DNA of 33,927 bases from Alphaproteobacteria bacterium (GCA_022823765.1 JAJEHK010000107.1:1-33927); one strand, 5' to 3'. Counted from the first letter of the stretch, positions 4,772-33,927 are shown. Notes: generated by a model not told the origin, from the sequence alone. Made by a program: numbers and translations.

Positions 4772-5707
4772 TCACGGGGTGTCCGGGGAGCCTTCCCTCT
4801 CGTCGCTCACGCGGACCGGCCTGAGATAGAGCAGGACCGGGGCAGCAACAAACAGGGACGAATAGGTGCCGATCAGGACCCCCCAGATCATGGCCAGCAC
4901 AAAGGGAGCAATCACCGCACCGCCGAACAGCCACAGGGCGACGAGGGCCAGCATCGTGGTGACACTGGTCATGACCGTGCGTGACAACGTGTCGTTGAGC
5001 GAGCGGTCGATGACAGCGCGCACCGGTTCCTGCTTGTACTTGCGGAGATTCTCGCGAATGCGGTCATAGACGACGACCGTGTCGTTCATCGAATAGCCAA
5101 CGATGGTGAGGAGCGCGGCAACAACCGGCAGATCGAACTCGATGCGGGTCAGGCTGAACACTCCGATGGTAAGGCCGACATCGTGGGCCAGGGCGAGTAC
5201 GGCACCGACACCGAACTGCCACTCGAAGCGAAACCAGATGTAGATCATCATCAGGGCAAGAGCGACCAGAACGGCCTGCGCCCCTTTTTCGATGAGTTCG
5301 CCGGAGACCTGCGGGCCCACGAACTCCACGCGCCGGTACTCGATATCCGGATACATGTCGTTGAGCGTCGCCTGAATCCTGTCGATGGCTTCCTGCTGAA
5401 CGGATTCATCGCCGGCCAACAGTGGCAGGCGGATCAGCACGTCGCTGGCTGAACCGAACTCCTGCAGTGCGATACTGCCGATGTCGAGTGCATTGAGTTC
5501 GCTTCTCACATGAGCGAGATCGGCGGCCTGCGGAGTGCGGATCTCGATCAGGGTGCCGCCCCTGAAATCGATGCCGAAGTTCAGCCCGGAAAAAAGCAGC
5601 AGGGCGATCGAACCGACGAAGAGAACCACGGACAGGATCACCGCAATCCGGTGATAATCCATGAACGGCAAATGCAGACCCGAAGGCACAAGACGAAGCC
5701 GTTTCAT
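4772..5707 (-). CDS. secF: Protein translocase subunit SecF
   Basis: GLNFGIDFRGGTLIEIRTP, ALALMMIYIWFRFEWQFGVGAVLALAHDVGLTIGVFSL, TIVGYSMNDTVVVYDRIREN. Confidence 0.96.
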   Translation of the reverse strand: MKRLRLVPSGLHLPFMDYHRIAVILSVVLFVGSIALLLFSGLNFGIDFRGGTLIEIRTPQAADLAHVRSELNALDIGSIALQEFGSASDVLIRLPLLAGDESVQQEAIDRIQATLNDMYPDIEYRRVEFVGPQVSGELIEKGAQAVLVALALMMIYIWFRFEWQFGVGAVLALAHDVGLTIGVFSLTRIEFDLPVVAALLTIVGYSMNDTVVVYDRIRENLRKYKQEPVRAVIDRSLNDTLSRTVMTSVTTMLALVALWLFGGAVIAPFVLAMIWGVLIGTYSSLFVAAPVLLYLRPVRVSDEREGSPDTP

Positions 5708-5710
5708 CGG

Positions 5711-7273
5711 TCAGATTCCCAGGGTCTTCGGACGGAACCGGGCAAGCCAGAGGTGGGTAAGGAGGCGAGTCAGCAACATCGCCGTGAACATTGACGTGAG
5801 AATGCCGATGGCGAGCGTGGCGCCAAACCCCCTGACCGGCCCGGAACCCAGGAAGAAAAGCAGAAACGCCGCCACCGCGGTGGTGATGTTGGCATCGAGA
5901 ATGGTGGTCATGGCTCTCCTGAAACCCGTCTCGACGGCATTGAGAATGGTGCGGCCGTGACGCAGTTCCTCGCGGATGCGCTCGAAGATCAGCACATTCG
6001 CATCTACCGCCATGCCGACCGTGAGAACAATGCCGGCGATTCCAGGAAGGGTGAGTGTCGCCTGCAACAGCGACAACAGACCCATGAGGAGAATGAGATT
6101 GGTGATGAGCGCGACGTTGGCGAAGGCACCGAGGGTTCCGTAACAGGCGACCATGAAGACGATGACGGCAGCAAAGCTGACTGCCGCCGCAATCTTGCCG
6201 GCTTCAATTGAGTCCGCGCCCAGGGTGGGGCCAACGGTGCGTTCCTCGACGACCGTGAGAGGAACGGGCAGTGCGCCGGCCCGCAGCAACAAAGCCAGTT
6301 CCTGTGTCTCGAACACCGTGAAGGAGCCTGTGATGATCCCGCTGCCCTGGCAGATCGGCCCATTGATGCGCGGAGCGCTGATCACGACTCCGTCGAGAAC
6401 GATGGCAAGAAGACGCCCGACATTCTCCGTCGTCACGTCGCAGAATCGTGCTGCACCCACACCGTCGAAACTGAAAGCAACAACCGGTCGACCCTGATCA
6501 AAACTTGCCGCGGCACTCTCCAGGCTTTCGCCGGTCACAAGAATCTCGGCCCGCAGGACGTGGTTCTGTCCGGGCTGTTCGCGTCCGGGCATGAGTACTG
6601 AACCGACCGGGAGTTGTCCGGCTTCGGCGGCGCCAACGGAAGTATCCTGGTCAACAAGATGGAATGTCAGCTTGGCGGTCTGGCCAAGACGCGAGCGCAG
6701 TACCCGCGTGTCGTCGACTCCCGGCACCTGGACCAGAATGCGATCCCGTCCCTGGCGGGTAATGACCGGTTCCAGAACGCCATCGGGATCGATACGCCCG
6801 CGCAGCACCTCCAGGGTGCGCTCGATGGCATCGCCGAGTCCCGCCTCCAGGCCCTCTTCGGTGAACGCCGCAATGATTCCTCCGGTCTCGTCGATGGTGA
6901 TCGTGAAATCGTCAGCCAGCCCGTCGAGTTCCCGGGCAGCCGCGGCAGCATCGTCGGCATTGCGCAGGGCGAACTGCCGGTGAGCGTCATCGCCGCCGAT
7001 GACCCTGACACCGATGCGTTCACCACGCAGGGTGCGTCGCACGTTGCCCTCGAGCCAGGCGAGGCGCCCTTCCCTCCAGGCTGCCTCGTCAATCTGCAAC
7101 AGAAGATGCGCGCCCCCGGAAAGATCGAGGCCGAGGCTCACCTGCTTGTGCGGCAACCACGTCGGGAGGTCACGTGCCAGGTCACGCGAGAGCAGGTTCG
7201 GTGCGGCGAAGGCCAGACCCAGAACACCGACAAGAACAACGATCCAGATCTTCCAGGTCGGAAAGTAACGCAT
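5711..7273 (-). CDS. secD: Protein translocase subunit SecD
   Basis: MRYFPTWKIWIVVLVGVLGLAFAAPNLL...VSLGLDLSGGAHLLLQID...GMAVDANVLIFERIREEL; start at ATG 7273 (track ORF extends further upstream). Confidence 0.96.
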   Translation of the reverse strand: MRYFPTWKIWIVVLVGVLGLAFAAPNLLSRDLARDLPTWLPHKQVSLGLDLSGGAHLLLQIDEAAWREGRLAWLEGNVRRTLRGERIGVRVIGGDDAHRQFALRNADDAAAAARELDGLADDFTITIDETGGIIAAFTEEGLEAGLGDAIERTLEVLRGRIDPDGVLEPVITRQGRDRILVQVPGVDDTRVLRSRLGQTAKLTFHLVDQDTSVGAAEAGQLPVGSVLMPGREQPGQNHVLRAEILVTGESLESAAASFDQGRPVVAFSFDGVGAARFCDVTTENVGRLLAIVLDGVVISAPRINGPICQGSGIITGSFTVFETQELALLLRAGALPVPLTVVEERTVGPTLGADSIEAGKIAAAVSFAAVIVFMVACYGTLGAFANVALITNLILLMGLLSLLQATLTLPGIAGIVLTVGMAVDANVLIFERIREELRHGRTILNAVETGFRRAMTTILDANITTAVAAFLLFFLGSGPVRGFGATLAIGILTSMFTAMLLTRLLTHLWLARFRPKTLGI

Positions 7274-7284
7274 GGCCGATAATG

Positions 7285-7653
7285 TCAATCGCCACCGTTG
7301 TCGCCCGCATTCCCCTCGTCCGCCCTCACGGCCTGGCGCGGTTCCGGCTTCGCCACGATGTCCGCGATCATGGAGTGCCGGCACTTCACCCTGACGTCCT
7401 TGGCGATTTCGATGATGAGGACGCCGTCTCCCTCGATGCGGGCGACGTTCCCGATGATGCCACCGTTCGTGACCACCTGATCACCCCGCTTGATCGAACT
7501 GAGCATGGCCTGGTGCTGCTTGGCCTTCTTTGACTGCGGCCGAAACACGAAAAACCAGAAGACGCCGAACATGGCGACCATGAGAATGAGAAAGAAGGGA
7601 TCGAAACCGGCGGCACCTGCTTCGCCCTGTGCATAGGCGTGTGTGATCGGCAT
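7285..7653 (-). CDS. yajC: Preprotein translocase subunit YajC
   Basis: FFLILMVAMFGVFWFFVFRPQSKKAKQHQAMLSSIKRGDQVVTNGGIIGNVARI. Confidence 0.95.
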   Translation of the reverse strand: MPITHAYAQGEAGAAGFDPFFLILMVAMFGVFWFFVFRPQSKKAKQHQAMLSSIKRGDQVVTNGGIIGNVARIEGDGVLIIEIAKDVRVKCRHSMIADIVAKPEPRQAVRADEGNAGDNGGD

Positions 7654-7765
7654 GTCGATATCCTGCGCGAAAGGTGGCGGACTATAGCCGGGGGATGACC
7701 GATTGCAAACTGCCGGCTAGTGTGAAGCACAATGATAAACCCTGATTGACCACCCTGTCTGCTTC

Positions 7766-8638
7766 ATGACGAATCCCGCACTCGCCCGTATCGCCCAGGC
7801 CCTGGAACGCATCGCCGGCACTGCCGCTTCGTCGCCCGGGGACAACGCGGTCCCGGCCCTTCCGCAGGGCGGTGACGCGTTTGTCTGGCAAGCGTTCGAT
7901 GACACGCTCAAGGCGGTTGAACGCGTCCAGTACGTGCCGCTGAGCCTTCTCCGCGGCATTGACCACGCAAGGGATGCCCTGCTTGAAAACACACGCCAGT
8001 TTGCCAGGGGCTATCCCGCCAACAACGCTCTTCTGTGGGGAGCCCGCGGTATGGGAAAGTCGACACTCATCAAGGCCGTCCATGCCGCGGTCCATGCCGA
8101 ACAGCCCGGCTCCCTGGCGCTGATCGAGATTCACCGGGAAGACATTGCTCATCTCTACCGCCTGCTCTCGCGGATGCGCCAGGTGGAGCGGCGCGCCATC
8201 CTGATGTGCGACGATCTTTCCTTCGATGCCAACGACAGCACGCTCAAGTCGCTCAAGGCCGTGCTCGAGGGCGGTCTCGAGGGAAGGCCGGACAACGTGC
8301 TCTTCTATGCGACTTCCAACCGACGCCACCTGACGCCTCGCGACATCATGGAAAACGAGCGTTCGACCGCGATCCATCCGGCGGAGGCCGTCGAGGAAAA
8401 GGTGTCGCTTTCCGACCGGTTCGGGCTGTGGCTCGGTTTTCACGGATGCGACCAGCCGACCTACCTTGCCATGGTCAAGGGCTACGCAGACCATTTCGGC
8501 CTCGGCGTGGAAGAGGACGCGCTCAATGCCCGTGCCATCGAATGGCAGATGACACGCGGTGCGCGATCCGGCCGCGTCGCCTGGCAGTTCATCCAAGATC
8601 TCGCAGGTCGCCTGGAGAGGACACTCGACCCCGTCTGA
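7766..8638 (+). CDS. DUF815 family ATP-binding protein (AAA+)
   Basis: Walker A GARGMGKSTLIK, LILMCDDLSFD-type Walker B (AILMCDDLSFDANDSTLKSLKAVLEGGLEGRPDNVLFYATSNRRHL), SDRFGLWLGFHGCDQ. Confidence 0.93.
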   Translation: MTNPALARIAQALERIAGTAASSPGDNAVPALPQGGDAFVWQAFDDTLKAVERVQYVPLSLLRGIDHARDALLENTRQFARGYPANNALLWGARGMGKSTLIKAVHAAVHAEQPGSLALIEIHREDIAHLYRLLSRMRQVERRAILMCDDLSFDANDSTLKSLKAVLEGGLEGRPDNVLFYATSNRRHLTPRDIMENERSTAIHPAEAVEEKVSLSDRFGLWLGFHGCDQPTYLAMVKGYADHFGLGVEEDALNARAIEWQMTRGARSGRVAWQFIQDLAGRLERTLDPV

Positions 8639-8654
8639 TGGAACAAGCGGCGCT

Positions 8655-9671
8655 TCAGCCCTCCACCAGGTGTTCGATCGGATTGACCGCTGTCGTTCCC
8701 TGGCGAAGTTCGAAGTGGGACTGCGGTTGGGAAATGCCGCCACTGGCTCCGACACTGGCGATGACGTCGCCGCGCAAGACCATCTGGCCTCGGGCGACAA
8801 GATTGCGCGCATTGTGGGCATAGGCCGTGACCCAGCCATCCGTATGGCGCAACAGCACAAGATTGCCGTAACCCCTGATCTCGTTGCCGACGTAGGAGAC
8901 GACGCCATCTTCCGCCGCACGCACCGGTGTCCCGGCCGGTGCGGCGATGTTGATGCCGTCATTGTGCAAACCACCGGCCTTGGGACCAAAACCCGAGACA
9001 ACCCGTCCGGTGACAGGCCAGATGAACTGCAGGTCGCCTCCGGGCGCCGGCTCGGGGATGGCCGTCATCACGGGTTCGGGAATGGCGGTCGTCACAGGTT
9101 CGGGGATGGACACGTCTGCCGCCGCCACCTGGGGTGGAGTGGTGACTGCCTGTGGCACCGTCAGTTGCTGTCCTTCCAGGAGGAGATAGGGTTTGACCAG
9201 ACCATTGATCTCGGCGAGTTCGCGTGAGCGCACACCAAGGTGGCGCGAAATGCCGAGCAACGTATCGCCGCGCCGTACAGTGTAGATTGTGACCGGCCCT
9301 GTATCTGAAGGCACGGTTTCCAGGACCATCGGTTCGCGGGGCGTATCATCCCCGGCGGCGCCGAGAATGCGTTCAATGTGCGCCAACAAGTCCCCGGTTG
9401 CCTGTTCTTCCGGCTCGGCGACGGGCGGCGGCGGCGCAGCAGGCACCGCCGGTGGAACGGGCTTTTCGCCAGGCAGGGGAGGCAGGGATGCCAGTCGGCC
9501 GGCGGGCGGAGTTCCTGGCAGTGGTGGCACGACATGATCGATGTGGCGCACCGGCGCCGGCATCTGGGCACAGGACGCCACCAGAACGGCGACGCAAAGG
9601 AGCGCCAGAAACCCCGGCACCGGTCTGTCACTCCTGGACGAGAGGAACAAACCTGACATCGAGAAAGGCAT
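8655..9671 (-). CDS. LysM + degenerate M23/LytM domain lipoprotein, NlpD-like
   Basis: Signal/lipobox-like FLALLCVAVLVASCAQ, LysM YTVRRGDTLLGISRHLGVRSRELAEINGL, M23 WPVTGRVVSGFGPKAGGLHNDGINIAAPAGTPVRAAEDGVV...SHFELRQG. ATG 9671 chosen; overlaps the pcm end. Confidence 0.88.
   Translation of the reverse strand: MPFSMSGLFLSSRSDRPVPGFLALLCVAVLVASCAQMPAPVRHIDHVVPPLPGTPPAGRLASLPPLPGEKPVPPAVPAAPPPPVAEPEEQATGDLLAHIERILGAAGDDTPREPMVLETVPSDTGPVTIYTVRRGDTLLGISRHLGVRSRELAEINGLVKPYLLLEGQQLTVPQAVTTPPQVAAADVSIPEPVTTAIPEPVMTAIPEPAPGGDLQFIWPVTGRVVSGFGPKAGGLHNDGINIAAPAGTPVRAAEDGVVSYVGNEIRGYGNLVLLRHTDGWVTAYAHNARNLVARGQMVLRGDVIASVGASGGISQPQSHFELRQGTTAVNPIEHLVEG
9049..9114 (-). repeat. 24-nt in-frame tandem repeat (about 2.7 copies) encoding IPEPV(T/M)TA
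   Basis: GGCTCGGGGATGGCCGTCATCACG / GGTTCGGGAATGGCGGTCGTCACA / GGTTCGGGGATGGACACG; protein VSIPEPVTTAIPEPVMTAIPEPAP. Confidence 0.8.
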
Positions 9672-14279: not shown

Positions 14280-15326
14280 TCAGGCGAGGTGCGGGGCCTG
14301 CTGACAGGGGAAGACGAGAACGGAATCTTCGTCAAAACGAATCCTGACATCGGTACCGGGCTCCGGCGCCGTCTGACCAAGGATGCGCGCCCGCAGCGTC
14401 TCGCCGTTCTTGAGGCGCAGGGAAACAAGCGTGGAATGACCGACCAGACGCCGTTCAATCACCCGTGCGCCAGGACCCTCGCCTTCGGGCGTCAAGTGCA
14501 GGCCTTCCGGACGAATCAGGACATCGACTCTCTGGCCGGTGATGAATCCGTCAGCCAGAACGTCACCCACCGGTGAGCGGACCCGGCCAGGAACTGCGGT
14601 GCCATGCAACCAGTTGACGTCACCGAGGAACCGCGCCACGAAGGCCGTTGCCGGACGCTGGTAGATCGCGCCCGGTGTTCCCGTCTGAAGAAGCCTGCCG
14701 CCCTGAAGAACGGCAATGCGATCGCCAAGATAGAGCGCTTCCTCGGCGTCGTGGGTGACAATGAGTGTTGTCGTCCCGATGTCTCGCAGGATTTCGAGAG
14801 TCTGGTCCCTCACCGATTCACGCAAGCGCACGTCGAGACCGGAGAACGGTTCGTCGAGCAGCAGGATGCGTGGTTTCGGCGCCAGGGCCCGCGCCAGGGC
14901 AACACGTTGCTGTTCACCACCCGAAAGCATGTGCGGGTACTTCTCCGCGTAACCACCAAGACCCACCATGTCGAGAAGGTCCCCGGCGGTGGACTTCGCC
15001 TGCCGGCTCCTGCGCAGGCCGAAGGCGATGTTGTCGGCGACAGTGAGATGGGGGAAAAGGGCAAACTCCTGGAAGACCAGGCCCACGCCCCGCATCTCGG
15101 GCGGCCGGTGGACGCCGTTTCCGGCGACCACTTCGTCACCGATGCGAATCTCGCCGCTCACCAGGGGTTCGAGTCCGGCGGCAAGGTGAAGGGCGGTGGT
15201 CTTGCCGCATCCCGAGGGACCGACCAGGCACATGACCTCACCGTCGGCAATCTCGAGATCGACATGTTTCAGGGCTTCTTCACCGGCCCAGGAATGGCTG
15301 ACGCCGTGAAAGGACAATCCTGGCAT
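14280..15326 (-). CDS. ABC transporter ATP-binding protein, FbpC/PotA-like (with TOBE-type C-terminus)
   Basis: Walker A GPSGCGKTTALHLAAGLE, Q-loop FQEFALFPHLTV, signature LSGGEQQRVALARALAPKPRILLLDEPFSGLD, H-loop VTHDAEEAL. Confidence 0.93.
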   Translation of the reverse strand: MPGLSFHGVSHSWAGEEALKHVDLEIADGEVMCLVGPSGCGKTTALHLAAGLEPLVSGEIRIGDEVVAGNGVHRPPEMRGVGLVFQEFALFPHLTVADNIAFGLRRSRQAKSTAGDLLDMVGLGGYAEKYPHMLSGGEQQRVALARALAPKPRILLLDEPFSGLDVRLRESVRDQTLEILRDIGTTTLIVTHDAEEALYLGDRIAVLQGGRLLQTGTPGAIYQRPATAFVARFLGDVNWLHGTAVPGRVRSPVGDVLADGFITGQRVDVLIRPEGLHLTPEGEGPGARVIERRLVGHSTLVSLRLKNGETLRARILGQTAPEPGTDVRIRFDEDSVLVFPCQQAPHLA

Positions 15327-27663: not shown

Positions 27664-28005
27664 ATGGAAGTCAGGACAGAGCAAGAGGACGATGTCCTTG
27701 TCACCACCGTCAACGGCCGCATAGACAGCGCCACGGTCAGCGAGTTCCAGCACCTGATGGAAAGGGCCATCACCGATGACATCAGGAGAGTCATCGTCGA
27801 CTTCGAGAATCTGAGCTACATCAACAGCGCTGGTCTGAGGGCGGTTCTCGTGATCACCAAGAACCTGTGGACGCGCAATGCGAAGCTGGCGCTCCATTCG
27901 CTGCAACCATCCATCCAGGAAGTTTTTTCCATCGCCGGATTCGACAAGATCATCCAGGTGTGCGCCGACAAGGCTGAGGCACTTGACGCAACCCAGGAAA
28001 AGTAA
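27664..28005 (+). CDS. STAS-domain anti-sigma factor antagonist (SpoIIAA/RsbV-like)
   Basis: DVLVTTVNGRIDSATVSEFQHLMERAI...RRVIVDFENLSYINSAGLRAVLVITKNLW...EVFSIAGFDKII; NSAG motif with candidate phospho-Ser55. Confidence 0.92.
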   Translation: MEVRTEQEDDVLVTTVNGRIDSATVSEFQHLMERAITDDIRRVIVDFENLSYINSAGLRAVLVITKNLWTRNAKLALHSLQPSIQEVFSIAGFDKIIQVCADKAEALDATQEK

Positions 28006-28052
28006 GGTCGCATCACCCGTTTCCCCTGGCTTAACTTGATCATGGGCGCCAC

Positions 28053-29210
28053 ATGACCGAACCGCGCAAGATACTTGTCGTTGACGATGAACCGGATCTC
28101 GAACGCCTGATGCTGCAGCGGATGCGCCGGGAGATCAGACGCGGGAAGTTTCACTTCACATTTGCCGGCAACGGTATTGAGGCTCTTGCGGCGCTCAACA
28201 AGGACCCCGAGATCGAGATGGTTCTCTCGGACATCAACATGCCCGAGATGGACGGCCTGACACTGCTTGAACAAATTCCCAAGGTAGACCCGAACATCCG
28301 GTCGGTGATTGTTTCCGCCTACGGCGACATGAAGAACATTCGCACCGCCATGAATCGCGGCGCCTTCGATTTCGTGACCAAGCCGCTAGATTTCGACGAT
28401 CTGAGGGTCACCATCGATCGCACACTGCGGCATCTCGAGATGCTCCGCGAAGCTTTGCAGTCGCGCGACAAACTCGTCGCCCTGGAGAACGAACTCAGCG
28501 TCGGACGCGCGATGCAACAGGCGATCCTTCCAACGAGTTTCCCGGAGTCGCAGACTTACCAGGTCTTTGCCAACATGGAACCCGCCCGGGACGTCGGCGG
28601 AGATTTCTTCGATATCCTCCACCTGCCTGACGACAGGATCGGACTGTCCATTGCGGATGTCTCCGGCAAGGGCGTCCCCGCAGCCCTCTTCATGATGTCG
28701 AGCCGCACCCTTCTCAAGGGCGCCGCGGTTGGAAGAACCTCGCCAAGTGAGGTGCTGCAGGAAGTCAACGACCTGCTGAACGAGAACAACGAGACCTCAA
28801 TGTTTGTGACGCTGTTCTTCGCCATCTTCGACCCCGCCTCGGGCATGCTCACCTTTGCCAATGCGGGGCACAATCCCCCACTCATCATTCACGCGGATGG
28901 CAGCCACACGCAGTTCGGCACCACCGCCGGCGTGGCACTCGGGGTCGTGCCGGGAATCGAGTACACGCAACAGCAGATCCGCTTGCAGTCCGGCGACATG
29001 GCCGTCTTCTACACCGACGGCGTGACGGAGGCTGAAAACGAGGACCAGGAACAGTTCGGTCTGGAACAGCTGACAACGCTGTTCAGCGAGTCCGCGCCGA
29101 CGAGTGCCAAGGAAGCCAACCATGCCGTGTTCCGGGCAGTTGAGGCTTTCTCGGGGAACGCCCCGCAATTCGACGACATCACCTGTCTCACTCTCTACCG
29201 TTCGGGGTGA
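28053..29210 (+). CDS. Response regulator receiver domain fused to PP2C-type (SpoIIE/RsbU) Ser phosphatase
   Basis: REC: ILVVDDEPDL, VLSDINMPEMDG (Asp60), VSAYGD, TKPLDF. PP2C: MEPARDVGGDFFDIL, SIADVSGKGVPAALFMM, FYTDGVTEAENE, FDDITCLTL. Confidence 0.95.
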   Translation: MTEPRKILVVDDEPDLERLMLQRMRREIRRGKFHFTFAGNGIEALAALNKDPEIEMVLSDINMPEMDGLTLLEQIPKVDPNIRSVIVSAYGDMKNIRTAMNRGAFDFVTKPLDFDDLRVTIDRTLRHLEMLREALQSRDKLVALENELSVGRAMQQAILPTSFPESQTYQVFANMEPARDVGGDFFDILHLPDDRIGLSIADVSGKGVPAALFMMSSRTLLKGAAVGRTSPSEVLQEVNDLLNENNETSMFVTLFFAIFDPASGMLTFANAGHNPPLIIHADGSHTQFGTTAGVALGVVPGIEYTQQQIRLQSGDMAVFYTDGVTEAENEDQEQFGLEQLTTLFSESAPTSAKEANHAVFRAVEAFSGNAPQFDDITCLTLYRSG

Positions 29211-29214
29211 TGGT

Positions 29215-29634
29215 GTGACAGCCAGCACGACCCTCGTCATCAAGACGGCCATCGAGGAACTGCAGAAGATCGAGACCGCCGTGGACGAGATCTCCGGCGC
29301 CGAGGGCTGGCAGCCGGATATCGAGTTCAAGATCAGACTGGTCCTCGATGAACTCTGCACCAACGTGGTGAACTACGCCCACCGCGACGACCTCGATCAC
29401 GACATGACAGTCACGATCGAGTCCGATGACGATGAAGTGAGGGTCGAGATCGTCGACGATGGCGATCCCTTCAATCCCCTGGAGGATGCCCCGGAACCCG
29501 ACACGGAATCGGCACTGATAGACCGCAAGATTGGCGGACTCGGCGTCTATTTCGTCAAGACGCTCGTGGATGACGCCCGTTACTGGCGCGTTGACGACAA
29601 GAACCACGTGGCGCTCTCCAAACGGAGGAGTTGA
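29215..29634 (+). CDS. ATP-binding anti-sigma/serine kinase-like protein (HATPase_c_2, RsbW family)
   Basis: GTG start 29215, 4 nt after the upstream stop; FKIRLVLDELCTNVVNYAHRDDLDHDMTVTI (N-box), EIVDDGDPFNP (G1), KIGGLGVYFVKTLVDDARYWR (G2). The track start at 29104 lies inside the upstream gene. Confidence 0.9.
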   Translation: MTASTTLVIKTAIEELQKIETAVDEISGAEGWQPDIEFKIRLVLDELCTNVVNYAHRDDLDHDMTVTIESDDDEVRVEIVDDGDPFNPLEDAPEPDTESALIDRKIGGLGVYFVKTLVDDARYWRVDDKNHVALSKRRS

Positions 29635-30875
29635 TGCAGCGGGCCATACTGCCCCGTTTGTGTGCTGCCGTGCTGGTGCTCGCTGCCAACCTCGCTCATG
29701 CCGACGAAGCGGGTGTCGATAACGATTCCGTCACGTTCGGACAGTCGGCTGCCTTCAGCGGACCGGCACAGGATCTTGGCATTGAGATGCGCCGGGGCAT
29801 CGAAATGGCATTCGCGGAAGCCAACGAGACAGGCGGCGTCTTCGGCCGCGCCCTTGAACTTGTCTCACTTGATGACGCCTACGAGCCGGAAGCCGCGATC
29901 GCCAATACGATGGAACTGATCACAGAGGAGAACGTGTTCGCCCTGATCGGAGCCGTCGGCACGCCGACTTCAAGATCTGCCGTCCCGGTTGCCCATGCCG
30001 AAGACGTTCCCTATATCGCGCCCTTCACGGGCGCTGCCTTCCTGCGTGACCGCCAGTGGAGCAACGTGATCAACCTGAGGGCGTCCTACTATCAGGAAAC
30101 CGAGAAGATCGTCGATTTCCTCACCACGTCGCTGGGTATCGACCGCATCGGAGTTTTCTACCAGGACGATTCATTCGGCCAAGCCGGGCTGCGCGGCGTC
30201 CAGATCGCTCTGGAGCGGCGCGGTCTCCAGATGGTCGGGACCGGCGTCTATCCGCGCAACACCAGGGCGGTCAAGACGGGGCTTCTTGATCTGCGGTCGG
30301 CCAACCCCGATGCGGTTGTGCTCATTGGCGCCTATCAACCGGTGGCCCGTTTCATCGCCTGGGCGAAGCAGATCGGCTTCGAGCCCCATTTCATGACCAT
30401 CTCGTTTGTCGGCAGCAATGCACTCATCGAAGAACTCGGACCCGCAAGCAGCGGCATATTCGTGACCCAGGTTGTTCCACCACCGCACGGCAACGAAAGC
30501 GCTGTCATCATTGAAGACGGGCTTCTTCACAGCGTCGGCGCCGACACCACCGACACCAGCCTGCCGATTGTCGAACACTACCGGCAGCTTCTGGCGAGGA
30601 TGTATCCGCAGACGCCGCCCGGCTTCGTTTCACTCGAAGGCTACCTGGCGGGTCGCCTGGTCGTCAGTATCCTGGAGAGCTGTGGCGTATCTCCTGATCG
30701 CGCCTGTTTCCTCGAGACCATGACCTACCACCATGTCATCGACCTTGGGGGGTTCTCGGTCCGGTTCGGATACGACAACCAGGGGTCCGACGCGGTCTAC
30801 CTGACAGTCGTCGATGATCAGGGCCGCTACCGGAAGGTCGTCGAAACAGCAGGTGACGCCGGCGGCGGGGAATGA
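29634..30875 (+). CDS. Periplasmic substrate-binding protein, branched-chain amino acid/type-1 PBP family
   Basis: Signal peptide MQRAILPRLCAAVLVLAANLAHA; FGQSAAFSGPAQDLGIEMRRGIEMAFAEANETGGVFGRALELVSLDDAYEPEAAIANTMELITEENVFALIGAVGTPTSRSAVPVA; no ABC permease or ATPase genes adjacent. Confidence 0.92.
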   Translation: MQRAILPRLCAAVLVLAANLAHADEAGVDNDSVTFGQSAAFSGPAQDLGIEMRRGIEMAFAEANETGGVFGRALELVSLDDAYEPEAAIANTMELITEENVFALIGAVGTPTSRSAVPVAHAEDVPYIAPFTGAAFLRDRQWSNVINLRASYYQETEKIVDFLTTSLGIDRIGVFYQDDSFGQAGLRGVQIALERRGLQMVGTGVYPRNTRAVKTGLLDLRSANPDAVVLIGAYQPVARFIAWAKQIGFEPHFMTISFVGSNALIEELGPASSGIFVTQVVPPPHGNESAVIIEDGLLHSVGADTTDTSLPIVEHYRQLLARMYPQTPPGFVSLEGYLAGRLVVSILESCGVSPDRACFLETMTYHHVIDLGGFSVRFGYDNQGSDAVYLTVVDDQGRYRKVVETAGDAGGGE

Positions 30876-33058
30876 CGATGTTCCGGCGCCTCTACAATCT
30901 GCGCTCGCGTATCTCGGCGCAGCTCACCATCGCCATCATGGGAGCAGTGGCCATGACGGTCATCTCCGGCATGGTGGGCTGGTACTCCTTTGATCGCGTG
31001 GCGGATGCCCAACGGCGCGTCAGCGAGGGAACGGTTCCGGCCATTGCCGCTGCATTCGGTATCGCCCAGCAAAGCGGCGCCCTGGCAGCGGCGGCGCCGA
31101 AGCTTGCCGCGGCCAGCACGCAACTTGACCTGACCTACGCCGGTTTCGAGATTCAGCAGAATCGCGAAGAGTTCGCCAGGCAACTGCAGTTGCTGGAGGA
31201 GCTCGGCGGCGACGAGGAGCATTTCCAGCCAATCCGCACCCAGGGACGTGCTCTGGTCAGCACCATCGTCGACATAGAAGACCTGATGTGGAACCTCTTC
31301 GCATTCGAGGCATCACGCCAGCGTCTCAGGGACCGGATGGCGGTACTCTCCAGGGAATTCAATCACTTTCTCGCTCCCGCCATCGACGACCAGTTGTTCT
31401 ATGCCATGACCGGCTACCGGGTTCTCGGTGAAGTGCCGATGGTTCGGACCCACGCCTTCACCGACAGCGAGATACTGCGTTACCGAACCCTCTCGGAAGT
31501 CCATTCCGGCACAACGGTGGCGTTCGAGATCCTGGCGACGGTCTTCAACACGTCCAGCATCACACTTCTCGAGCCACTCAGGGAAAGGTTCGAAGCTGTC
31601 AGAAGGGGGATTCACAACAACATCAACACCCTTCCCGACGGCGAAGAGAGACGACTCCTCGACAATCTCTTCACCGAAATGGACCGGCTTGGCAGCGGCG
31701 AGGGCAGTGGTTTCGACATTCGTCAACGGGAGCTCGAGGCCGAGATCGAACTCCAGGAAACCCTGGAGTTGAACCAGTCACTGGCACTCAACCTGGTCAA
31801 CAACGTCGAGAAACTGGTCAGCGTAGCCGAAGACGCCGCCATCAATGCGACCGCGGCTTCCGAGGATGCCATCCTGACCGGGCGCAATCTCCTGATCGGC
31901 ATCAGTTTGGCCAGTTTCGTAGGGGCTGCGCTGATCTCCTGGCTCTATGTCGGCCGCGGCCTCATCCGGCGACTTTCACTGTTGTCGGACCACATGCGGG
32001 TCATGGCGAAGGGTGACCTGGAGAGAGAGATCGAGGTACGTGGCAGTGACGAGATTGCAGAGATGTCCTCTGCACTGGAGGTGTTCCGGCAGCATGCCCT
32101 TGAGGTTCAGCGACTCAATCTCGTCGAAAAGATGGCCAACGAACTGAAGGCGAAGAACGAACTTATCGAGACAGCCCTCAACGATCTCGAGAAGGCCCAG
32201 GACCAGATTGTCATGCGCGAGAAACTCGCGGCACTCGGTGAACTCACCGCCGGTGTCGCCCACGAGATCCGCAATCCGCTCAACTTCATCAAGAATTTTG
32301 CCGAAGGCTCGACAGAACTTCTCGAGGAGATGGTGGAGGAGATCGAGGCATTGCTTGCGGATGTTGAAGAAAACGAAGAAACAAAGGAACGCCGTGATCT
32401 CGTCCAGGAGATTGTCGACGACCTGGTCGAGAACACGAGACTCATACGCCAGCATGGCACGCGCGCTGACAGTATTGTGCAGAACATGCTGATGATGGGC
32501 CGTGGATCGGGTGAGCGTCAGCCGGCCGCCATCAATCCACTGGTCGACGAGCATGCCCGTCTCGCCTATCACAGCGCCCGGGCAACGGACACCAACTTCC
32601 AGGCAGAACTCGTCTTTGAACTTGATCCCGAGGTCCCGGAGATGCACATCATTCCCCAGGATATCGGCCGCGTCTTTCTCAATCTGATCGGCAACGCCTG
32701 CTATGCCGCCGATGACCGTCGGCGCAAGGTGCGCGAGGCAGACCCGTCAGCCCGCTTCGACCCGGTTATCCGGATCAGCACCAAGAAGCTGGATGACGGT
32801 GTCGAGATTTCCATTCGAGACAACGGCACCGGCATCCCCGACGATGTCATCGGAAAGATTTTCAACCCCTTCTTCACGACCAAACCGACGGACCAGGGAA
32901 CCGGACTCGGACTCGCGATGTCGAACGACATCATTCGCGAGCACGGCGGCACCATCACGGTCGACTCCGAACCCGATTCCTACACCGAGTTCACCGTGCA
33001 CCTGCCCTTCGACACGACGCCAACCACCAACGATTCTTCTCCGGCCCCGCCCGACTGA
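30872..33058 (+). CDS. Sensor histidine kinase with TorS-like helical periplasmic sensor and HAMP
   Basis: Two TMs; periplasmic helical region VGWYSFDRVADAQRRVSEGTVPAIAAAFGIAQQSGALAAAAPKLAAASTQLD; HAMP RLSLLSDHMRVMAKGDLEREIEVRGSDEIAEMSSALEVFRQ; H-box GELTAGVAHEIRNPLNFIKNF (His464); N-box NLIGNACYAADD; G boxes DNGTGIPDD, GTGLGLAMS. ATGA overlap with the PBP gene. Confidence 0.94.
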   Translation: MTMFRRLYNLRSRISAQLTIAIMGAVAMTVISGMVGWYSFDRVADAQRRVSEGTVPAIAAAFGIAQQSGALAAAAPKLAAASTQLDLTYAGFEIQQNREEFARQLQLLEELGGDEEHFQPIRTQGRALVSTIVDIEDLMWNLFAFEASRQRLRDRMAVLSREFNHFLAPAIDDQLFYAMTGYRVLGEVPMVRTHAFTDSEILRYRTLSEVHSGTTVAFEILATVFNTSSITLLEPLRERFEAVRRGIHNNINTLPDGEERRLLDNLFTEMDRLGSGEGSGFDIRQRELEAEIELQETLELNQSLALNLVNNVEKLVSVAEDAAINATAASEDAILTGRNLLIGISLASFVGAALISWLYVGRGLIRRLSLLSDHMRVMAKGDLEREIEVRGSDEIAEMSSALEVFRQHALEVQRLNLVEKMANELKAKNELIETALNDLEKAQDQIVMREKLAALGELTAGVAHEIRNPLNFIKNFAEGSTELLEEMVEEIEALLADVEENEETKERRDLVQEIVDDLVENTRLIRQHGTRADSIVQNMLMMGRGSGERQPAAINPLVDEHARLAYHSARATDTNFQAELVFELDPEVPEMHIIPQDIGRVFLNLIGNACYAADDRRRKVREADPSARFDPVIRISTKKLDDGVEISIRDNGTGIPDDVIGKIFNPFFTTKPTDQGTGLGLAMSNDIIREHGGTITVDSEPDSYTEFTVHLPFDTTPTTNDSSPAPPD

Positions 33059-33089: not shown

Positions 33090-33927
33090 TCACAGATCGG
33101 CGAAGACGTGGGTCTCACCTCCGCCACCAGGGTGTGAGACGGCGCCAAGACGGGCCGGTCCGACGGTCTGTGCGTACTTCCAGATGACACCCGAATTGTA
33201 GTCGGTGGTCCTGGGTTTCCACGCCTTGCGGCGGGCCTCGAGTTCAGCCGCGTCGAGTTCGACGTCGAGTGTTCCCGCGGCCGCATCGATGGCGATCATG
33301 TCACCGTCCCTGAGCAAACCGATCGGTCCGCCGGCTCCCGCCTCCGGTCCCACATGACCGATGCAGAATCCACGGGTGGCTCCGGAGAACCGGCCATCGG
33401 TGATGAGGGCAACCTTTTCACCCATTCCCTGACCATAGAGCGCGCTCGTGGTGGCCAGCATCTCGCGCATTCCCGGCCCGCCTCGTGGCCCCTCGTAGCG
33501 GATGATCAGGACGTCTCCCTCATCGAATGCGCCGGCGAGGACGGCATCGAGGCAGGCCTCCTCGGTGTCAAAGCAGCGAGCCGGGCCACGGAACTGAAGG
33601 CGAGAGAGGCCGGCGATCTTCACGATGGCGCCTTCGGGCGCGAGATTGCCCTTGAGACCGACCACGCCGCCGGTGCTTGACAGCGGATTGGTCACGGGCC
33701 GCACCACGTCCTGATCCTCGGGGAAAACGACGTCGGCGTGGTTTTCGGCGAGCGTCTTTCCGGTCACGGTGAGAGTATCGCCGTGCAGGAATCCACCATC
33801 GAGAAGGGTCCTGATAAGTACCGGAATGCCGCCAATTCCATAGAGGTCCTTGGCCACGTAACGGCCACCAGGCTTGAGATCGGCGATATAGGGGGTGCGG
33901 CGAAAGACGTCGCAGACATCCTCGAGG
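33090..33927 (-). CDS. ilvD: Dihydroxy-acid dehydratase (IlvD/Edd family), C-terminal portion, truncated by window edge
   Basis: [40 protein letters not shown]...[16 protein letters not shown]...[19 protein letters not shown]...[24 protein letters not shown]. Frame continues past the track ATG (33857) to the window end. Confidence 0.92.

Follow-up and report, generated by a model that had tools for sequence, protein, structure and literature searches.

A transporter-free HAAT-type binding protein paired with a TorS-type sensor kinase in an alphaproteobacterial partner-switching operon: a candidate portable receptor module

Introduction

Control of a sensor histidine kinase by a periplasmic binding protein (PBP) is established for TorT-TorS, which senses trimethylamine N-oxide (TMAO) in E. 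coli and Vibrio (PMC8534201, PMC6321045). LuxP-LuxQ and XylFII-LytS also comprise kinases under binding-protein control (PMC6321045), and AgtS and AruS are kinases encoded near solute-binding protein genes that were examined for a binding-protein role (PMC11113362). We here describe a five-gene operon in a 33,927-nucleotide (nt) stretch of DNA (the window) from Alphaproteobacteria bacterium (GCA_022823765.1 JAJEHK010000107.1:1-33927), in which genes of a partner switch are followed by a stand-alone PBP gene and the gene of a kinase with a TorS-type sensor; all coordinates are positions in this window. As in TorT-TorS, the PBP gene adjoins a kinase with the TorS helical double-bundle periplasmic domain. 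Unlike TorT-TorS, the PBP belongs to another type-1 family, the output consists of REC-PP2C, STAS, and RsbW instead of TorR, and the kinase lacks REC and Hpt domains, both of which are present in the TorS of locus L096. The sensors of LuxQ, LytS, AgtS, and AruS are not TorS-type (that of LuxQ is a double PDC sensor, unlike the window kinase), and no partner switch has been described for these systems.

The other half of the operon resembles the RbaV-RbaW-RbaY system of Rhodobacter capsulatus, which likewise combines a STAS protein, an RsbW-type HATPase, and a REC-PP2C protein in Alphaproteobacteria with no adjoining sigma-factor gene (PMC3999984). A sensor kinase feeding its REC-PP2C protein was postulated but unknown in the paper describing Rba-type switches (PMC3999984); the window operon, which unlike the Rba system includes a PBP and a TorS-type kinase, offers a testable input. 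In HptB-HsbR-HsbA, CrsR-CrsA, and SypE-SypA, REC and PP2C domains under phosphorelay control a STAS protein as well (PMC6482189; SypE-SypA as described in PMC12826045), and in HptB-HsbR-HsbA it is the phosphorylated REC-PP2C protein that turns on STAS dephosphorylation (PMC6482189). In contrast to the window, HsbR and CrsR have REC, PP2C, and an RsbW-like domain fused in one protein, and the hybrid kinases upstream of HsbR act through HptB, with no PBP described. A literature search with subscription journals mostly outside its reach found no account of the five-gene cassette.

Results and discussion

The kinase carries a TorS-type periplasmic sensor

The kinase comprises 728 residues, with transmembrane (TM) helices at residues ~14-32 and ~337-356 enclosing a periplasmic stretch of ~300 residues and a HisKA phospho-acceptor position at His464. 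It ends after HATPase_c with no REC and no Hpt domain in Pfam, as an earlier note made from the DNA alone (the original prediction) had claimed. The Pfam TorS model PF21689 matched residues 55-164 with an E value of 4.1e-5; this match scored 23.7 bits against a curated cut-off of 27, exceeded the cut-off together with neighbouring matches in another scan, and compares with 375 bits for the TorS of genome G066, which is of the E. coli type. A profile built from ten PBP-linked sensors and free of TorS reached the TorS of G066 with an E value of 1.8e-14 over positions 3-346, and a profile from five partner-switch sensors alone still reached TorS (E 9e-5). A phmmer search of the sensor against PDB sequences gave nothing meaningful, TorS being reached solely via profiles and fold comparison.

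An AlphaFold (AF2) model of kinase residues 10-420 (411 residues; mean pLDDT 85.6) showed an all-helical periplasmic part, as anticipated, which fits the TorS fold of stacked four-helix bundles. Structure prediction had been proposed as a check that could speak against a TorS-like sensor. The best PDB matches of the model were the TorS sensor in TorT complexes: ranks 1 to 6 were all TorS sensor entries (3o1i, 3o1h, 3o1j, 3i9y, 3i9w; TMt 0.67-0.85), with PilJ, NarQ, and McpS far behind. Unlike the profile test, the fold test lacks full independence, since one TorS (L096) was part of the alignment and PDB structures were used to train AlphaFold. The TorS likeness, which the original prediction had pointed out, is upheld for the predicted periplasmic domain by profile and by modelled fold.

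Related helical sensors such as NarX and McpS bind small ligands directly, and the window sensor could do the same, leaving the PBP as an accessory scavenger or modulator. McpS and NarQ do appear lower in the fold search, and a number of TorS-type sensors lack a PBP neighbour. The closest folds, well ahead of NarQ and McpS, are nevertheless those of TorS in TorT complexes, and the PBP gene is linked to the sensor tightly and repeatedly (see below), which makes direct binding unlikely.

In four relatives (L157, L176, L085, L161) the TorS-type sensor spans ~480 residues (~32-520), within which a segment of ~130-140 residues is duplicated (E 2e-10 to 4e-18), probably forming one extra stacked helical bundle.

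The binding protein belongs to another family than TorT

The PBP gene runs from an ATG to a TGA and encodes 413 residues. In both the sequence and the model (pLDDT 89.4), the N-terminus shows a hydrophobic helix with AHA-D behind it, resembling a Sec signal peptide, in agreement with the expected export. The best fold match and nearest solved relative by sequence and fold is 4kv7 (36% identity), a LIV/HAAT-type protein of Rhodopirellula baltica annotated merely as a possible LIV-binding protein. The earlier comparison with branched-chain amino acid or amide binders is in line with this. The window PBP is a Peripla_BP_6 protein, whereas the TorT of L096 is Peripla_BP_1/4, and BLASTP between the two revealed no similarity (best E 1.0). 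By these sequence criteria the window PBP is a member of a different type-1 family from TorT, and TMAO is not implied as its ligand, a doubt already voiced in the original prediction. Its description of the locus as a repurposed TorT/TorS pair holds insofar as a TorS-like sensor is paired with a PBP; it is too literal for a PBP that is no relative of TorT.

True orthologues of TorT and TorS sensing TMAO would account for the sensor homology and for TIGR02956 (TorS) being the best NCBIfam match of the kinase (E 6.6e-48). The TIGR02956 score, however, was 163.5 compared to an equivalog cut-off of 676.5, and together with the PBP family and the missing REC and Hpt domains this led us to reject orthology as scarcely credible. 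In addition, a TorT-like Peripla_BP_1/4 protein adjoins a different TorS-type kinase in a genome from the window's own family (L100), and no genes for TMAO reductase or TMAO respiration were recognised among the window open reading frames (ORFs) scanned with Pfam.

The PBPs of the genus share an insertion of ~20 residues (window residues ~283-305) just past a conserved TQVVP motif, which is missing in all other aligned relatives.

Binding protein and sensor stay together in many families

PBP relatives were collected at E <= 3e-74 from a class-wide sample of 289 genomes. Of the six loci given by a contig scan with the PBP, three belonged to the same genus; a wider genome search was then used. 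It yielded 17 relatives besides close orthologues, of which 16 come from outside the genus and one is a more divergent copy within it (G412). Thirteen of the 17 lie directly upstream of, and on the same strand as, the gene of a TorS-type sensor protein, with gaps of -4 to 95 nt; in L149 the PBP stop and the sensor start overlap as GTGA (gap read from sequence). As there are at most a few TorS-type sensors per genome, we estimate, without a formal computation, the probability of chance adjacency to be far below 1%. Among nine genus-mates, close orthologues of PBP and kinase (both >80% identical) were both present in three and both absent in six. The distance matrices of PBPs and sensors correlated with r = 0.85 for 17 pairs and r = 0.63 for 13 pairs after removal of close relatives, and none of 5000 permutations reached values as high. 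This correlation fits co-inheritance and does not prove contact. Gene order and conservation across many families indicate that the pairing of PBP and kinase is real.

The PBP could still deliver substrate to an ABC importer whose other genes lie elsewhere and share the operon only for co-regulation, with the kinase sensing directly or otherwise. Typical members of the HAAT/LIV family serve ABC importers, 4 of the 17 PBP relatives are not located beside a TorS-type sensor, and the window does contain an ABC ATPase gene. The latter (14280-15326) is the only one found there; it lies on the opposite strand ~14 kb upstream, and no permease or ATPase gene adjoins the PBP gene, as the original prediction had stated. 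Near the 13 paired loci no ABC ATPase ORF was present within the 6 kb searched; among 20 PBP loci searched in this way, an ORF with an ABC ATPase motif occurred only at L155, which lacks a TorS-type sensor. Because the PBP moreover stays with the TorS-type sensor despite changed outputs and gene surroundings, we regard the importer explanation as quite improbable.

The receptor pair is combined with different outputs

The PBP-sensor pair is connected to HAMP-HisKA-HATPase in the window, L149 (by similarity to the window kinase), L150, and L151, to a HisKA-HATPase-REC-Hpt hybrid kinase in L088, to methyl-accepting chemotaxis protein (MCP) signalling domains in eight loci (L153, L154, L157, L158, L159, L161, L162, L176), and to PAS and adenylate/guanylate cyclase domains in two loci of the window's own family (L098, L099). 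The sensor of L085 is paired with a PBP as well, the contig ending before the output domain. More distant pairs of a TorS-type sensor and a Peripla_BP_6 protein (L090, L097) also have cyclase outputs. Other TorS-type sensors have neighbours from different PBP families, namely Peripla_BP_1/4 (L092, L096 with TorT, L100, L106, L108), SBP_bac_3 (L093), SBP_bac_6 (L082, L113), and DctP (L107). The sensor therefore looks like a general PBP-reading domain. TorS itself forms a remote branch within a broad family of sensors, many of them encoded beside PBPs of different families.

On balance we favour the view that an orphan HAAT-type PBP and a TorS-type sensor form a portable receptor module that has come to serve at least four kinds of output, namely a histidine kinase feeding a partner switch, a hybrid phosphorelay, a chemotaxis receptor, and a nucleotide cyclase. 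In the window, the module would place a serine-phosphorylation partner switch under the control of a small molecule in the periplasm. More generally, the TorS-type sensor would serve as a general docking domain for PBPs from several unrelated families, TorT-TorS being one special case. TorS has been known mainly for TMAO sensing; here, TorS-type sensors are seen with many different binding proteins and outputs. Such genome-encoded pairs give a handle for ligand finding in a class of receptors that are difficult to study because they may not bind ligand themselves, and the wider pattern merits a systematic survey.

In L100 (G413, ~4968-9047), the gene of the kinase with the TorS-type sensor is divergent from that of the TorT-like protein, an arrangement as in L096. 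The genes upstream of the L074 and L076 sensors had been suspected to encode PBPs and were rejected, as in these two tested cases they code for outer-membrane beta-barrels.

The partner switch as the probable output of the kinase

By domains and motifs the operon contains the STAS, HATPase, and PP2C components of a partner switch, as the original prediction had proposed for the neighbourhood of the kinase. The STAS antagonist has its phosphorylatable Ser in INSAG, the REC-PP2C protein contains the REC Asp within LSDINMPEMDG and the PP2C metal motifs GGDFFD, ADVSGKG, YTDGVTE, and FDDIT, and the RsbW-type HATPase shows the N-box DELCTNVVNYAH and the glycine box GGLGVYFVK. Read from the translations, the catalytic residues of the cassette (STAS Ser, REC Asp, PP2C metal motifs, and kinase His464) look intact. 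The operon encodes no response regulator besides REC-PP2C, which is the likely target of the kinase.

The order STAS, REC-PP2C, HATPase, PBP, and histidine kinase recurs in G404 and G409 of the same genus (the STAS of G409 was found by tblastn with 99% identity) and in G573 and G659 of another family (f144), in differing surroundings. G481 (f156) has PP2C, PBP, kinase, and STAS genes with no HATPase recognisable by tblastn. In both the PBP and the sensor tree the six partner-switch rows require a single label change, with moderate support (84/74 and 69/50).

We consider it probable that the operon forms a chain from a ligand-binding PBP via the TorS-type kinase and REC-PP2C to the STAS/RsbW switch, a model in which PBP control in the style of TorT-TorS is joined with the partner-switch logic of the Rba and HsbR types. 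The exported, transporter-free HAAT-type PBP would bind a small extracellular ligand and dock on the helical TorS-type sensor of the kinase encoded next to it, and ligand-dependent docking would alter kinase/phosphatase activity via the HAMP domain. The kinase would then phosphorylate the REC domain of REC-PP2C encoded in the same operon. PP2C would dephosphorylate the STAS protein and the RsbW-type HATPase would phosphorylate it, and the resulting partner exchange between STAS and HATPase could free or capture a downstream target, presumably a sigma factor or another regulator.

Alternatively, kinase and PBP might use a response regulator encoded elsewhere and have the partner-switch genes as mere neighbours. 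L151, which has PP2C and STAS but no HATPase, would be in line with this, as it shows that the cassette is not rigid. Against this stand the order and near-zero spacing of the five genes kept in two families, REC-PP2C as the operon's only response regulator, and the single label change in both trees, so that a regulator elsewhere has a low probability.

Several observations weigh against the proposed chain from PBP to partner switch. No sigma-factor gene adjoins the cassette (the genome was not searched for targets), and L151 lacks a HATPase gene recognisable by tblastn. The distance correlation between PBP and sensor is partly shared descent. Four of the 17 PBP relatives (L152, L155, L156, L160) have no TorS-type neighbour, which implies that the PBP can work otherwise, and TorS-type sensors without a PBP neighbour occur in f21 genomes and in a genome group including L074 and L076.

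The source genome encodes a second RsbW-type HATPase (G000:C65:9263-9640) and a second SpoIIE/PP2C domain (G000:C125:3697-4257) at separate loci, and a second partner switch may therefore exist.

Cassette layout and neighbouring genes

The five genes occupy 27664-33058 on the plus strand with near-zero spacing (Table 1). The HATPase gene has a GTG start 4 nt past the PP2C stop and overlaps the PBP gene as TGATG, and the expected ATGA overlap of PBP and kinase was found. The span originally given for the pair, 29634-31930, starts correctly at the PBP ATG; its end marks the end of the sensor region. The kinase gene continues to 33058, and the operon begins upstream at 27664.

Table 1. Features of the cassette
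Feature	Position	Strand	Evidence
STAS anti-sigma-factor antagonist (RsbV/RbaV-like)	27664..28005	+	PF01740 E 1.4e-18; TIGR00377 above cut-off
Response regulator REC + PP2C (SpoIIE), RbaY/RsbU-like	28053..29210	+	PF00072 E 1.9e-22; PF07228 E 3.3e-55
RsbW-type serine kinase / anti-sigma-like HATPase	29215..29634	+	PF13581 E 3.5e-25
Stand-alone type-1 PBP, Peripla_BP_6 (HAAT/LIVBP-like), signal peptide	29634..30875	+	PF13458 E 1.1e-58
ATGA, overlap of PBP stop and kinase start	30872..30875	+	sequence
Sensor histidine kinase: TM, TorS-type sensor, TM, HAMP, HisKA, HATPase_c	30872..33058	+	PF00672, PF00512, PF02518
Predicted periplasmic TorS-type all-helical sensor, residues ~36-337	30977..31882	+	PF21689, PDB fold matches, TorS-free profile

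The cassette is flanked by glnE upstream and by a convergent ilvD gene downstream. The latter (33090-33926, minus strand) belongs to branched-chain amino acid synthesis and faces an operon with a LIV-like PBP; no functional link is claimed. In G404 an ORF oriented similarly to the window ilvD comes after the kinase.

Further groups of related binding proteins

A second group of PBPs, 38-41% identical to the window PBP (L104 in G000:C30, L163, L170, L171, L175), is encoded upstream of two membrane proteins, one with two TM helices and the other with many, which in L171 are of the sCache_3 and MFS types, respectively; in L104, L171, and L175 a short ORF resembling the kinase part (HisKA-like in L171) precedes. 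This group is a candidate for another signalling use of stand-alone HAAT PBPs. PBPs of a third group, 33-36% identical (L105 in G000:C336, L172, L173), have two Band_7/SPFH genes as neighbours (tested in L105), and ORFs with ABC ATPase motifs were present nearby in L172 and L173. In L164 and L166 a PBP of the wider group is located directly upstream of a HisKA-HATPase kinase with no Pfam sensor domain and no match to the TorS-type profile, possibly representing another sensor type that reads the same PBP group.

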